A DNA stretch of 64,000 bases from Lactobacillus johnsonii ATCC 33200 (GTDB lineage Bacteria > Bacillota > Bacilli > Lactobacillales > Lactobacillaceae), in assembly GCF_000159355.1 (NCBI RefSeq), contig NZ_GG670122.1, forward strand, positions 1 through 64,000, read 5' to 3'. Below the pieces are notes generated by a model. The model was not told the DNA's origin and ran no database searches. It saw only the letters and a program-made list of their open reading frames with translations. Made by a program: the position numbers and the translations under genes. Shown in pieces: positions 24,885 through 45,399 of the stretch (position 1 is the first letter of the stretch; every line of letters starts with the position of its first letter).

Positions 24885-25307
24885 ATGAGTTTTGATCGAA
24901 GAAAAGTAGAAATTAACAAGCAAATGATTTTAATGCCCATTAATACTGGTGTAAGTGAAAAAGATATTTTAAAGCAAGCAGAGGAAATAAAAAAACTACA
25001 GCCTGAGATGATGGAGTGGAGAATTGATTATTTTAAAGACGTAGTTTTGATGAATAGGTTACTTGAAGTTGCAGGAAAAGTGAAAAATGTGATGGGGACT
25101 ATTCCTATTTTAATTACATTTCGTAGCCAAAAATTCGGCGGCAAAACTGAATTAGATAGTGAAGATGCATATTTAAACCTAGTAAAAATTATAATTGATT
25201 TTAAATTGGGATATGCCGTTGATATCGAGCAAGGACATGTGTCGGATAGAGTAAAAGGGTTAATTAAAGATGCGAAATCTAAGGAAGTACAAGTGGTACT
25301 TTTTTAG
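24885..25307 (+). pseudogene. aroD: 3'-truncated type I 3-dehydroquinate dehydratase (aroD remnant)
   Basis: Only about 140 residues of a protein that is normally about 250 long. The first half of a type I dehydroquinase is clear: MILMPINTGVSEKDILKQA, then MEWRIDYF (the conserved EWRxD substrate contact), IPILITFRS (usual PLLFTFRT) and YAVDIE (usual VDIE). The protein stops after VQVVLF, exactly where the family continues to the catalytic His-Lys part. The active Schiff-base Lys and His are absent, so it cannot be active. Sequence after the stop shows no recognisable remainder, which points to a deletion. No other shikimate gene is in the window. Confidence 0.85.
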
Positions 25308-25458: not shown

Positions 25459-26235
25459 TTGAATAACGATCCACTTATATTTGAATTTGCGATAGCTAAA
25501 GATAAACCATCTAGTTTTAATGGTAGTAAGGATATTACCTGTCCTTTTTGTGATGTGGAAAATTTAAGGGATATTTATCAAACCAATGGTCCAATGATCT
25601 GGCTGGCTAATCGTTTTCCAACTTTAAAAGATACAAAACAAACGGTATTAATTGAATCAGATGAACATCATGGGGATGTTGCTACATATTCACAAGAATA
25701 TAATCGCCGCTTAATGAAGTTTGCTCTTGAATGTTTCGACAAGATTAGGCAAAACAGAGAATTTAGATCAGTCCTTTGGTATAAAAATTTTGGACCTAAG
25801 TCTAATGGATCACTGTCTCATTCGCATATGCAAATTGTTGGTTTGTATAAAGAAGATGGCTATAAATATATTCATGAAAATAATTTTACTGGAATTACTG
25901 TTTTTAAGACAAATAATATGGAAGTTAATTTCGCGACACATCCAGTTCAAGGCTTTCAGGAATTAAATGTTAATTTAATAGATAAAAACGGCTTAAATCT
26001 TTGGGCGGATTGGATTCAATACGCTATCCGTTATACTTTAGAAGAGATGTATGGGGGAAAATGTGATTCATATAACCTGTTTTTCTATCCCAATAAAGGC
26101 GGAATTTGTTGTAAAATTATCCCACGTTTTTATGCGCCGCCTTATTTTGTAGGATATAAATTATCTGAGTGTAATGATAATAATACCTTGAGAAAAGAAG
26201 CGAAGAGATTATTAAATTTTGTACAAAAATCTTGA
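25459..26235 (+). CDS. HIT/GalT-superfamily protein (DUF4931-like)
   Basis: Soluble protein of 258 residues. The N-terminal CPFCDVENL (about 27-35) is a CxxC metal-binding element like that of galactose-1-phosphate uridylyltransferases. SHSHMQ in the middle (about 120-125) has the HxHxQ nucleotide-transfer motif in place of the GalT HPHxQ, preceded by an NFGPKSNGS loop typical of this superfamily. It thus may be a nucleotidyl transferase or hydrolase, but the substrate is unknown. The start is TTG, preceded by GAGG at 7 bp. It is 48 bp upstream of an RpiR-family regulator. Confidence 0.75.
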   Translation: MNNDPLIFEFAIAKDKPSSFNGSKDITCPFCDVENLRDIYQTNGPMIWLANRFPTLKDTKQTVLIESDEHHGDVATYSQEYNRRLMKFALECFDKIRQNREFRSVLWYKNFGPKSNGSLSHSHMQIVGLYKEDGYKYIHENNFTGITVFKTNNMEVNFATHPVQGFQELNVNLIDKNGLNLWADWIQYAIRYTLEEMYGGKCDSYNLFFYPNKGGICCKIIPRFYAPPYFVGYKLSECNDNNTLRKEAKRLLNFVQKS

Positions 26236-26283: not shown

Positions 26284-27135
26284 ATGGATTTATCTACTAA
26301 AGTTTTAAACAATTATCCTAATTTTAAGGGAGCATCTAAAAAGATTGCCGATTATTTATTGGCTCATCCAAAGACTTTTTTACAAGAAGATGCACAAGGC
26401 TTGGGGAAAATTACTAAAACTAGTGCTGCTTCGATGATTCGTTTTTGTCAACAATTGGGGTTTAAGGGTCTAAAGGATTTTCAAATTCAACTTGCTCAAG
26501 ATACACCACAAGAAAATGAGAATACAATTGAACCGATTGTGGATAATCATGATAATCCACATATCGTTTTACAAAAACTTCTGTCAAGTATTGAACATAA
26601 TACTGAAAAGACAGCTCATTTGATTGACGGAATGGCCTTAAATCAAGCTATCAATTTTTTGAAAAATGCTGATCGAATCTATTTAGCTGGTGTTGGTGCA
26701 TCCAGTTTACCAGCTCAAGATCTTTACTATAAATTTATTCGTAGTGATAAAAATGTCATTTTTAATCAAGATATTCATATTGCATTAGAGCGGATTTGTT
26801 ATTCACATTCGACAGATGTTTTGGTCATTTTCTCTTATAGTGGACTGACTCAAGAAATACTATTACTGGCTGAACAAGCACGTAAGAACCATACTCCGAT
26901 TATTGCTATCACTCGTTCTCATCAGTCTCCCTTGGTTGAAATCAGTGATGTGGTTTTAGGTGTATCAACCGATGAAAAGCTGCTTAGAGTAGGTGCGATA
27001 AATTCACTTTTTTCTGAAGTGTTTGTCTCAAGTGTTTTATTTTTAGCAACGATTAATCAAGATTTGCCTCGATTGGAAGAAAAATTTAAAGAAACAGAAC
27101 TAGTAACTAATCAATTAAAACAATTAGATGAGTAG
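26284..27135 (+). CDS. MurR/RpiR family transcriptional regulator
   Basis: Regulator of 283 residues. The N-terminal HTH_6 domain (about 1-77) includes KKIADYLLAHPKTFLQEDAQGLGKITKTS and SMIRFCQQLGFKGLKDFQ. A SIS sugar-phosphate-binding domain follows (about 120-255), with YLAGVGASSLPAQDLYYKF and FSYSGLTQEILLLAEQA, the phosphosugar-binding serine loops. Members sense sugar phosphates such as MurNAc-6P or ribose-5P. Its target may be the preceding HIT-like gene or distant genes; the MupG-like gene at 44362 would be a candidate target by function only. Confidence 0.88.
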   Translation: MDLSTKVLNNYPNFKGASKKIADYLLAHPKTFLQEDAQGLGKITKTSAASMIRFCQQLGFKGLKDFQIQLAQDTPQENENTIEPIVDNHDNPHIVLQKLLSSIEHNTEKTAHLIDGMALNQAINFLKNADRIYLAGVGASSLPAQDLYYKFIRSDKNVIFNQDIHIALERICYSHSTDVLVIFSYSGLTQEILLLAEQARKNHTPIIAITRSHQSPLVEISDVVLGVSTDEKLLRVGAINSLFSEVFVSSVLFLATINQDLPRLEEKFKETELVTNQLKQLDE

Positions 27136-27337: not shown

Positions 27338-28094
27338 ATGTTAAAGGATGGAATTACTGAAATTATCCAAAGGTATGATATTGATGCAGGTGTAATTGTT
27401 AAATATGGCGATCAAATTATGTATCAACATCAAGCTGAAAAAATTTTTCCAGCATTTGATTGACTTAGCTATTGCTGCATATATTGAAGATCAGTGGAAA
27501 AAGACCCCTGAAGTTGTGGATGAAAAAATGGAAGTTACTAATCTTTCTCGTGTGCGTGGCGCTGGTATTATTGGTGATTTACGTCGTACTAATTGGAGCG
27601 TTCGAGACATAGTTTATTTAACTAGTGCACTATCGTATAATGTAGCTACTAATCTATTAATTGAAGAATTTGATATTTATGAAATTGATGAGTGGTTAAA
27701 ACAGAATTATCCCAGCATCCGATTGGGAAAAGAGTTAATGCGCTATTCGACTAACGGTCAAGATAACGAATGTACAGCTATTAGTATTGATAAGTTAATT
27801 ACATATTTAATGACTACTCAAAATCTTTTTTGTGCTTTAGTGCGTAAAGGGTTAAGCAATCATACTATTCCAACAGATTTAACTTTTTATGGGGACAATC
27901 TTCTTACCTACAATAAACTGGGACGAGATCGTCAGGCACGCCATGAGGTTTGTGCTTTTATGACGAAAAAAGCGCCAGTATTTTGCACGGTTTTGAGCAG
28001 TTATGAGGGAAGAAATATAGAGGATATATTATTCTTTCAAGAATTAAGTAAGTTGATTTTCTCACATGTGAAGAGTGCTGACTTTGAAAAATAG
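27338..28094 (+). pseudogene. Frameshifted class A beta-lactamase-fold serine hydrolase relative
   Basis: The first frame runs from ATG 27338 (after GAAAGG) for 41 codons to TGA at 27461; the second frame carries on without a gap to 28094, giving about 250 residues in all. The frameshift falls at about 27455, just where the SxxK active site would lie (FPA then LIDLAIAAYI). ALSYNVATNLLIEEF closely resembles the beta-lactamase SDN-ATNLLI element, but with Tyr in place of Asp, and the KTG region reads KLG. Thus even the un-shifted ancestor probably had an altered catalytic set. The frameshift could also be a sequencing error. Confidence 0.7.
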
Positions 28095-28175: not shown

Positions 28176-29954
28176 TTGAAAAATATTTTTCGAAAAATAG
28201 ATATGTATTCTAAAAATTTTAGAATACATTGGCTAGAGTATGTCGCTTTGTTTATCGGAATAGATATTTTTACGCAGATGCTAATCATTCCGTTATTCAG
28301 ATATGTAACGACTGGAATTTTAAAAGCTAGTGTAATTCCGTTTGTTTCATACCAAAACATTGTTATCATTATTACCACGCATACTGGAGTTGCCCTCCTA
28401 CTAATCTTGGAATTAGTTATCCTGCTTTTAGTAATTTATGGTGTATTTGCCTTAATATTATTGGGAATTAGAGAAATTTCTCAGAATCAATTTTCACTTA
28501 AATTACTATTTAAAGAATTATGGCAGACATATCGTTCTGTTCGAGTAGGTTCCATCTTATTACTAGGCTTATATTTTTTATTAATTGTACCTTTTGCAGA
28601 TATGGTTTATCGAACGCCGTTATTAGCCAAAGTTCAAATTCCAGAATTTATTTTGGATTTTATGACTAGAAACATTTGGCTGATTAGTGGATTGATAATT
28701 TTTTATTTGCTAGCTTTTATTTTTGGTATCAGATTGATTCTGACGCTTCCCTTGATGATTTATCAAGAAAAAAAGACATGGATTGCGATGAAAGAAAGCT
28801 GGAAATTAACTAGCCACAAAAATTGGTGGACCCTCTTAAGTAGCTTATTAGTTGCAGGAATTTGTGTTAGCGTAATTTTAGTTAGCTGCAATTTAATAAT
28901 TTATTTCTGTCAATTGGGATTAGATCATTTGCCAGAAAAGCTTAGCTTTAGTTTTGCTATTTTTAATCTGTTACTGGTTCAGATATTCAGTGAGTTAATT
29001 GCAATTTGGATTAGTGTTATTTCTATCTTAATTGTCGTCACACCGTTAAATAGTTTTAAGTGGGAAGATCAGAAAAAAGTAAAAAGTAAAAAGACAGTTA
29101 AAATAGTAGATTCCTGCTTAATAATCATTTTTGTATTGGCTGCAGGAATCAATAGTGCCTTGTATTTAAAGGGAGCGGATATGCAGCGCCCAGTCACTAT
29201 TTCACACAGAGGTGTAAGTGATAAAAATGGAGTTCAAAATACTATCCCAGCTCTAGAAAAGACAGCAAAACTTCATCCAGATTATGTGGAAATAGATTTG
29301 CATGAAACAAAAGATAATCAGTTTGTAGTTATGCATGACGAAAATTTGAAAGAGTTAGCTGGCATTAATAAAACTCCAAAAGATTTAACTTTAAAGCAGT
29401 TGACCAGAATTACACTTCATGAAGATGGGCACCAAGCTAAAATCGCCAGTTTTGATCAATACCTGAAAGCTGCTAAGAAATTAAATCAAAAATTATTAAT
29501 CGAAGTTAAGACAACGCCCAATGATTCTCCAAAAATGCTCCAGAATTTTAATCAAAAATATGGCAAGCTAATTGTTAAGCGTAAATATCAAGTTCAGTCA
29601 TTAGATTATCGTGTTATTGAGGGATTACATCAAATTAACCCTAAGTTATTTGTCTTGTATATCCAGCCCTATAATTTTACTTATCCTCAAAGTGTTGCAG
29701 ATGGGTATTCAATGGAATATTCTACGCTAAACAATGATTTTATATGGCAGGCTCAACTCCAGAATAAGCTGGTATATGCTTGGACAGTTAATAGTCCACA
29801 AATGATGATGAAGATGATGTATGACAATGCCAATGGAATTATCACCGATCGACTAGCTGAATTAAATGAGACAGTTAAAGATTTTGAAGATAGTCGTAGT
29901 TATGCTAATAAGCTATTAAACTTTATTTTAATATTGCCTGATGATAATAAATAA
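28176..29954 (+). CDS. Membrane-anchored glycerophosphodiester phosphodiesterase
   Basis: Protein of 592 residues. The N-terminal 340 residues hold about seven or eight helices (the glycerophosphoryl diester phosphodiesterase membrane domain). The C-terminal GDPD TIM barrel begins at about 345 with ISHRGVSDKNGVQNT (catalytic His and Arg), YVEIDLHETKDNQFVVMHD (metal-binding Glu/Asp and second His), and ends with YAWTVNSPQ. It hydrolyses glycerophosphodiesters, such as deacylated lipids or teichoic acid units, to glycerol-3-phosphate and an alcohol, probably at the outer face. The start is TTG with GGAGG at 8 bp. It is a single-gene unit. Confidence 0.92.
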   Translation: MKNIFRKIDMYSKNFRIHWLEYVALFIGIDIFTQMLIIPLFRYVTTGILKASVIPFVSYQNIVIIITTHTGVALLLILELVILLLVIYGVFALILLGIREISQNQFSLKLLFKELWQTYRSVRVGSILLLGLYFLLIVPFADMVYRTPLLAKVQIPEFILDFMTRNIWLISGLIIFYLLAFIFGIRLILTLPLMIYQEKKTWIAMKESWKLTSHKNWWTLLSSLLVAGICVSVILVSCNLIIYFCQLGLDHLPEKLSFSFAIFNLLLVQIFSELIAIWISVISILIVVTPLNSFKWEDQKKVKSKKTVKIVDSCLIIIFVLAAGINSALYLKGADMQRPVTISHRGVSDKNGVQNTIPALEKTAKLHPDYVEIDLHETKDNQFVVMHDENLKELAGINKTPKDLTLKQLTRITLHEDGHQAKIASFDQYLKAAKKLNQKLLIEVKTTPNDSPKMLQNFNQKYGKLIVKRKYQVQSLDYRVIEGLHQINPKLFVLYIQPYNFTYPQSVADGYSMEYSTLNNDFIWQAQLQNKLVYAWTVNSPQMMMKMMYDNANGIITDRLAELNETVKDFEDSRSYANKLLNFILILPDDNK

Positions 29955-44361: not shown

Positions 44362-45399
44362 ATGCTCGGTTTTTCAGTTTACTTAGATAAAGATTTGACT
44401 GCAGATGATCATAATTATTTGCTTGGAATGAGGAATGCTGGTTTTAAGGAAGTCTTTACTTCATTAACCGGCTTAAAAGATGAAGCAGACGTAGTACTAA
44501 AAAGATTAGATCAGTTAACTAGCTGGTGTAAGGATTTAGAATTAAAGGTCATGGCAGATGTTTCACAAGATGATTTACATTATTTAGGCTATGATTTAGC
44601 GGATGCAGAAGAAATAAAGAAGCTTAATGTTACTGGGTTAAGAATTAACGATCAAGTATTAATGCGCTTTGTATCAAAATTGTCTAAAACTATGTGGGTA
44701 TCTTTAAATGCAATTTACTTACAACCAGAAGATATTACTCATTTAAAAGAAGAGGCGGCTAACTTTGATCATATTAGAGCCCTATTTGATTTTTATTCCC
44801 AGCCAGAAACAGGAATGGATGAAAAGTGGTTTGAAGAAAAAAATCAATGGCTTCACAATTGTAATTTAGAAACAGCAGCTTTTATATCTGGAGATGGAGT
44901 TAAAAGAGGACCATTTTTTGCTGGAGAAACTACTCTTGAGTCACAAAGAGGCGTATATCCATTAGCAGCAGCTCTCAACTTAAAAGATTTGGCATGCAAT
45001 AACGTCATTGTTGGCGATCGTCTAACTAGTGAAACGATTAAGTCTTTTGCGCGCTATACGAAGGATCATGCAATCACGCTTCATGTAGATGAAAAAAATA
45101 CTTTTCTCAATGAAAATCAATGGCATAATTATTTGTATCTTGCTCAAGATATCGTTAGACTTCGTAGTGAAGGCGAACTTCCAAAATTTGAAGCGCAGGA
45201 TTTACCTTTGGATCGACCTGTGGGAACAATTAGTATCAATAGCAATGGCTTAAATAGTAACGAAATTCATATTGCTAAGAGAAATTTACCTGTTAATAAA
45301 GATGGAAGGATTCTTGGAAGAGTCTGCGATGAAGAGTGTAGCTTGCTTCCTCATATCGAGCCAGGACAAAAAGTTATTTTTAAAAATTTAGAAAAGTAG
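44362..45399 (+). CDS. MupG/DUF871 family TIM-barrel protein
   Basis: Protein of 345 residues. The N-terminal barrel has GFSVYLDKDLTADDHNYL and FKEVFTSLTGL typical of DUF871 (MupG N-terminal), and the C-terminal small beta domain begins at about 240, with RPVGTISINSNGLNSNEIHIAKRNLP and ending RVCDEECSLLPHIEPGQKVIF. MupG of S. aureus is a 6-phospho-N-acetylmuramidase that splits MurNAc-6P-GlcNAc in peptidoglycan recycling. No MurQ or PTS gene accompanies this copy, so the substrate may differ. It is followed after 10 bp by a phosphatase and then by apbE. Confidence 0.85.
   Translation: MLGFSVYLDKDLTADDHNYLLGMRNAGFKEVFTSLTGLKDEADVVLKRLDQLTSWCKDLELKVMADVSQDDLHYLGYDLADAEEIKKLNVTGLRINDQVLMRFVSKLSKTMWVSLNAIYLQPEDITHLKEEAANFDHIRALFDFYSQPETGMDEKWFEEKNQWLHNCNLETAAFISGDGVKRGPFFAGETTLESQRGVYPLAAALNLKDLACNNVIVGDRLTSETIKSFARYTKDHAITLHVDEKNTFLNENQWHNYLYLAQDIVRLRSEGELPKFEAQDLPLDRPVGTISINSNGLNSNEIHIAKRNLPVNKDGRILGRVCDEECSLLPHIEPGQKVIFKNLEK

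Follow-up and report, generated by a model that had tools for sequence, protein, structure and literature searches.

The window, by which we mean the whole stretch of 64,000 nucleotides that was analysed (G000:C30:1-64000 in genome coordinates), comes from a Lactobacillus genome and carries at 27338-28094 a gene that is split over two reading frames. The features of the locus are listed below, with residues numbered as in the intact orthologues of this gene.

25459-26235, + strand: gene of a DUF4931 protein, on the upstream side in 14 of 14 genomes with the orthologue clade (Pfam, synteny)
26284-27135, + strand: gene of a MurR/RpiR-type regulator with HTH_6 and SIS domains (Pfam; NCBIfam below curated cut-offs)
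27338-27463, + strand: first-frame piece, ATG at 27338, 41 aa, premature stop at 27461-27463
Between 27454 and 27455, + strand: change of frame, where a gap of 5 columns falls on the Gly-Ser codons of SxxK
27453-28094, + strand: second-frame piece, open to the stop at 28094 (orthologue profile, E 3.6e-121)
27462-27464, + strand: Asp at the SxxK Lys position
27549-27557, + strand: Arg-Val-Arg (R73, R75)
27633-27641, + strand: SYN at the SDN position
27720-27743, + strand: segment R130 to R137, omega-loop region by motif order, with the window change R133K
27915-27923, + strand: KLG at the KTG position
28176-29954, + strand: gene of a membrane-domain glycerophosphodiester phosphodiesterase (GDPD), on the downstream side in 14 of 14 (Pfam, synteny)

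The initial annotation had described a beta-lactamase-fold gene here, and both the coordinates and the fold family held. PF13354 (Beta-lactamase2) matched the second-frame piece at an E-value of 1e-13 over profile positions 31-213 of 214; the piece scored 51.6 bits, three intact orthologues 75.1, 88 and 84, and the curated cut-off is 22. The first-frame piece corresponded to positions 1-41 of the orthologue profile (E 2.9e-16). NF033103, the NCBIfam class A beta-lactamase equivalog, reached E 0.17 and 11 bits with the second piece, short of its cut-off of 200, and no NCBIfam match came close to a cut-off for either piece. PADLOC at E 0.01 returned zero matches for two intact orthologues and two neighbouring genes. 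Promoter-like sites numbered 7 compared with a mean of 6.3 in shuffled sequence, and the two terminator-like sites exceeded the shuffles, but both lay within the gene.

Alignment of the DNA with five intact loci confirmed a frame change at the active site, where it had been placed before. The stretch lost in the gap is not a homopolymer and all six neighbours that were compared have open frames, so that a sequencing slip is an unlikely cause of the frame change. A broader version of this idea, that the window strain has an intact gene and the break comes from a sequencing or assembly error, can draw on the genome being in 32 contigs and on the gap being known from assembled sequence alone; substitutions on the window branch, given below, also bear on it.

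A first search in 60 relatives found matches in 17, and the five relatives that were named all belong to Lactobacillus, including L. taiwanensis and L. rodentium. A profile search at E 1e-5 in 75 genus genomes, the window's own included, gave matches in 29, 14 of which carry a member of one orthologue clade: 13 intact genes and the broken window copy. The proteins of G033 and G089 are identical, so the 13 orthologues represent 12 distinct sequences. The clade was sharply separated, its weakest intact member reaching an E-value of 8.5e-131 and the best match outside it 8.3e-47. Among 395 genomes of the order searched at E 1e-20, 38 had a match; 28 of these lie outside the genus, and none of their matches was a clade member (best outside match 9.4e-36). 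In the tree, from which a 159-aa paralogue remnant of the window's own genome was excluded, the clade occupied one side of a branch with support of 100/100 and a stem of about 1.5 (1.54) changes per column.

The clade gene lies between the DUF4931 gene and the GDPD gene in all 14 genomes, and in nine, which form the window's own branch, the RpiR-type gene stands between it and the DUF4931 gene. In two other Lactobacillus genomes, G013 (L147/L183) and G079 (L151/L197), the DUF4931 gene adjoins the GDPD gene with nothing between, and this junction is an empty or lost site of the clade gene. The synteny at one locus may reflect plain vertical inheritance. A type I dehydroquinase at 24885-25307 of the window has 140 aa and covers positions 6-121 of 230 of PF01487. 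In 11 of 14 clade loci, window included, it has its own open frame of about this length (140-160 aa in at least 10), so the half-length form is conserved rather than freshly truncated.

The catalytic motifs set the clade apart from other relatives. The Lys of SxxK, present in 42 of 42 other relatives, is replaced in all 13 intact orthologues, by Asp in 11 and by Ser in two. KTG occurs in 39 of the 42 others and in none of the 13, where its position reads KLG in eight, KMS in two and KST, RMS and RMG in one each. The nucleophile is Ser in eight orthologues and Gly in five, while 40 of the 42 others have Ser. At the SDN position the orthologues carry SDN (8), TDN (2) or GDN (3), with the Asp invariant in 13/13. 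The other relatives, 42 rows picked by profile and not by motif, comprise four Lactobacillus paralogues and 38 others; the rows L031/L103 and L032/L104 are the same genes fetched twice, leaving 40 distinct loci, and the counts hold among the matches listed, with seven order-level matches excluded from the reading. Loss of the Lys is common to the whole clade, and loss of the Ser marks two of its three sub-branches. With no Lys in any orthologue and no nucleophile Ser in five, the clade is predicted to be unable to use class A acylation chemistry. As a separate observation, two order-level proteins, L033 (G037) and L107 (G178), have Asn for the nucleophile Ser, SDH for SDN, and KTE or KTD for KTG; catalysis may have been lost there independently.

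Asp at the Lys position, SYN for SDN and KLG for KTG had been read correctly in the window copy, and it had been proposed from them that catalysis was dropped before the gene was broken. Inspection of the intact orthologues, the check suggested with that proposal, upheld it for the Lys and KTG and not for SDN, which became SYN by an Asp to Tyr change found in the window only. The nucleophile Ser, present in the eight nearest orthologues, is missing from the window solely through the gap. We therefore read the Asp and KLG of the window as old, its Ser loss as a product of the gap and its SYN as new.

Selection on the clade was estimated as dN/dS by the Nei-Gojobori method. Most species pairs of the Ser-bearing branch gave 0.05-0.09 at dS 0.8-1.1, G030-G011 gave 0.05, and G009-G005, a pair without Ser and Lys, gave 0.048. 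These values point to purifying selection on the intact pairs that could be measured. Ratios were higher for G036-G033 (0.27), G006-G095 (0.38, on 5 changes) and G080 (0.13 and 0.18 versus G009 and G005); between sub-branches they were about 0.14-0.31, where saturation of dS leaves the ratio with little meaning, and dS was incomputable for some pairs, e.g. G012-G094. The clade thus combines the sequence marks of pseudoenzymes, namely homology to an enzyme family, loss of catalytic residues and retained selection.

The window copy behaves differently. Its second piece had a dN/dS of 0.48 versus G036, and its branch carries 10 replacements and 6 silent changes, compared with 25 and 81 for the six open neighbours on the same branch (Fisher p 0.0027). 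The 10:6 ratio also differed from the G036-G015 pair (29 and 79, p 0.008). The sister branches of this gene carry many replacements as well, and comparison with them (8:11) gave a p of 0.31. Four of the 10 replacements, which include the Asp to Tyr change of SYN, fell on columns invariant in the 13 orthologues (67 of 212), with 3.2 expected if unconstrained. One of the changes unique to the window, R133K, lies in a column that is Arg in 55 of 55 aligned rows. A broken frame with relaxed selection beside intact neighbours is most likely a recent pseudogene. An assembly or sequencing error in a gene that is otherwise intact is very unlikely, because the gap spans five columns of non-homopolymer sequence, the neighbours are open, and the window branch shows both an excess of replacements over them and hits on invariant columns near the unconstrained expectation.

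Two further readings of the break were weighed against these data. The downstream frame can be taken from a TTG at 27396 and is then open for 232 aa, so it might be translated and useful, or a programmed frameshift might join the two pieces. Each of the 13 orthologues is encoded in a single frame, however, the downstream piece is under relaxed selection, and a frameshift product would be without the Gly-Ser residues; we find this barely credible. Alternatively, the break came first, in the gene of an ordinary serine hydrolase, and the motifs then went one after another, a course that fits the relaxed selection and the decayed SDN of the window copy. But the Lys and KTG are missing in 13 of 13 intact orthologues, and the measurable pairs among these are constrained. 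Simple decay was consequently rejected for the Lys and KTG and holds only for the SDN change and the Ser loss of the window; as an account of the whole it is highly unlikely. A recent pseudogene of an already non-catalytic clade remains our reading of the window copy.

What selection has kept in the clade was examined column by column. The intact orthologues share 74 invariant columns, in 23 of which the residue is found in at most four of the 42 other relatives. R75, E134, R137 and Q143 are invariant in the 13 and occur in 0/42 others, R130 is invariant in the clade and found in 4/42, and E205 is invariant in the clade and in none of the others, all 42 of which have Asp there. The codons of R75 and R130 include both CGN and AGA across the clade, and D44 is encoded by GAC and GAT; the mixed arginine codons indicate that the residue is conserved and not the DNA. 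Judged by motif order, R75 belongs to the loop that precedes the SDN helix and R130-R137 to the omega-loop region, both of which line the active-site cleft in class A enzymes. Constraint and the charged residues that the clade keeps invariant around the cleft together argue for binding or regulation; the residues would suit a small anionic ligand or a docking partner.

An AlphaFold2 model of one intact orthologue (L018), built from an alignment of 47 sequences, had a mean pLDDT of 92 and a pTM of 0.90. Its best comparison was with 4hes_C (Z 32.9, rmsd 2.3, 250 aligned residues, TM 0.90), and it also matched 4ewf_B (Z 30.4) and PBP-A, 2j7v_B (Z 30.4), so this orthologue is predicted to have a full class A fold. 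The first helix of the model starts at residue 2 and leaves no space for a signal peptide, which suggests a cytoplasmic protein.

The retained fold also raises the question of whether the clade is still enzymatic, with an altered mechanism that employs other cleft residues such as the invariant His204, Glu205 and Asp102. In favour of this, His204, Asp102, Asn107 and Arg133 do not vary across the 13 clade members or the 42 other rows. Yet five of the 13 have Gly in place of the nucleophile Ser, constraint on the pair G009-G005, which lacks that Ser, equals that on the Ser-bearing pairs, and no Cys is invariant in the clade. Taking both sides together, an altered enzyme appears improbable, and a non-catalytic protein is preferred.

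Paralogues with intact motifs offer a view of the family from which the clade may have come. In G011 and G030 such a paralogue stands beside MurQ, MupG, a BadF-type kinase and an L-Ala-D/L-Glu epimerase-like gene; the G011 cluster also contains an esterase, with a PTS EIIC and a PF00144 protein near. The dN/dS of this paralogue pair was 0.175. MupG acts in MurNAc-GlcNAc recycling according to passages of PMC6262408. The neighbourhood of the G011 paralogue suggests an ancestral family that acts on cytoplasmic muropeptides.

The clade itself does not follow this pathway. MurQ was not found in five of the 14 clade genomes (G005, G009, G095, G006 and G080), three of which are 99% complete, and MupG was not found in three of the 14 (G005, G009 and G080); completeness is 79% for G006 and 59% for G080. 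A strict dependence of the clade on muropeptide recycling was rejected on these absences, some of the genomes being incomplete, as was a fixed partnership with the motif-intact paralogue, which was found in only four of the 14 clade genomes. Because clade presence does not track MurQ or MupG, the pseudoenzyme is not assigned to muropeptide recycling here.

Several observations were made on the same families in the window's genome. The motif-intact paralogue is represented there by the 159-aa remnant at G000:C31:504850-505299 (L007, L037, L087), which lies beside MurQ; the kinase, MupG, esterase and epimerase genes are absent from the 14 kb stretch around it. A MupG-like gene at 44365-45036 of the window matched PF19200 at E 1.6e-55 and was the sole MupG match found in the genome, and a MupG match of similar strength was present in eight sister genomes. 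A second degenerate PF13354 protein is encoded outside the window at G000:C30:153137-154078 (L006, L108). It has a hydrophobic N-terminal stretch and is probably membrane-anchored, and it had matches in 71 of the 75 genus genomes. In the 30 loci of its family that were read, KTG occurred in 0/30 and the Ser position was N, S, K, A, D, G or T; these loci may represent a non-catalytic class A-like family that is older and spans the genus.

As a whole, we explain the locus as a broken member of a genus-restricted pseudoenzyme clade reused for binding or regulation, with a probability of about 75%. That the clade is a conserved pseudoenzyme and that its break in the window is recent we hold to be very probable. 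Ligand binding or regulation as its job is a tentative assignment from sequence, with odds slightly short of even, and the binding role that the initial annotation had raised is plausible; the choice of any particular ligand would be unlikely to be right. The clade would have descended from cytoplasmic class A-like hydrolases, some of them in MurNAc or muropeptide-recycling clusters, and would have lost acyl-transfer chemistry on its long stem branch, while its protein was remodelled for binding or regulation without catalysis. Its working part is likely the old active-site cleft with the clade-invariant charged residues R75, R130/E134/R137 and E205, the last adjoining the invariant His204. 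In the window copy, a short gap would then have removed the nucleophile codons and shifted the frame, and selection would have relaxed.

A more specific scenario, which we regard as doubtful, is that of a hydrolase turned receptor in gut lactobacilli. Loss of the Lys, of KTG and, in two sub-branches, of the nucleophile would have been joined by new arginines and an Asp-to-Glu change beside His204, so that the protein might hold an anionic metabolite and signal to a partner; the broken window copy would then show that some niches can do without the signal.

A PF13354-type match by itself easily leads to such proteins being named hydrolases or resistance genes. For this clade such labels would be misleading, for instance when probiotic strains are screened for safety. 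Furthermore, the relatives with Ser and Lys, the members that kept Ser and lost Lys, and those that lost both form a stepwise series, in which it can be studied how the penicillin-recognising fold turns non-catalytic under selection. The fold family is known, and the new part is a conserved non-catalytic branch of it.

A literature search yielded no paper recognised as being about the clade among the matches listed. The words "lactamase", "penicillin" and "peptidoglycan" are absent from the main text of a pseudoenzyme review (PMC10211241), and a passage on transcripts of mouse forestomach lactobacilli includes PF13354 and names no gene (PMC4241727).

Among known systems, the Lactobacillales class A-like serine hydrolases are relatives of the clade at 25-34% identity and likely represent the ancestral type, but they have the SxxK Lys in 42/42 and KTG in 39/42 and lie at another locus. 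The class A-like protein of Veillonella parvula (4hes) shares the fold over 250 residues and matched the profile at E 1.1e-15; its aligned stretch contains Ser-Leu-Ile-Lys, Ser-Asp-Asn and Lys-Thr-Gly, whereas the clade is without the Lys and the triad. The beta-lactamase of Sphaerobacter thermophilus (4ewf) has the same PF13354 fold. PBP-A (2j7v) is likewise class A-like in fold, and it forms an acyl-enzyme with penicillin G according to the title of 2j8y, in contrast to the clade, in which residues required for acylation are missing. Cpe/Orf12 of Streptomyces clavuligerus is, like the clade, related to class A beta-lactamases and has a role other than beta-lactam hydrolysis. Passages of PMC6478378 describe its Ser/Lys/Ser/Lys tetrad as kept and needed in vivo, and an extra N-terminal domain; Cpe thus differs from the clade in retaining the catalytic tetrad and in this additional domain.
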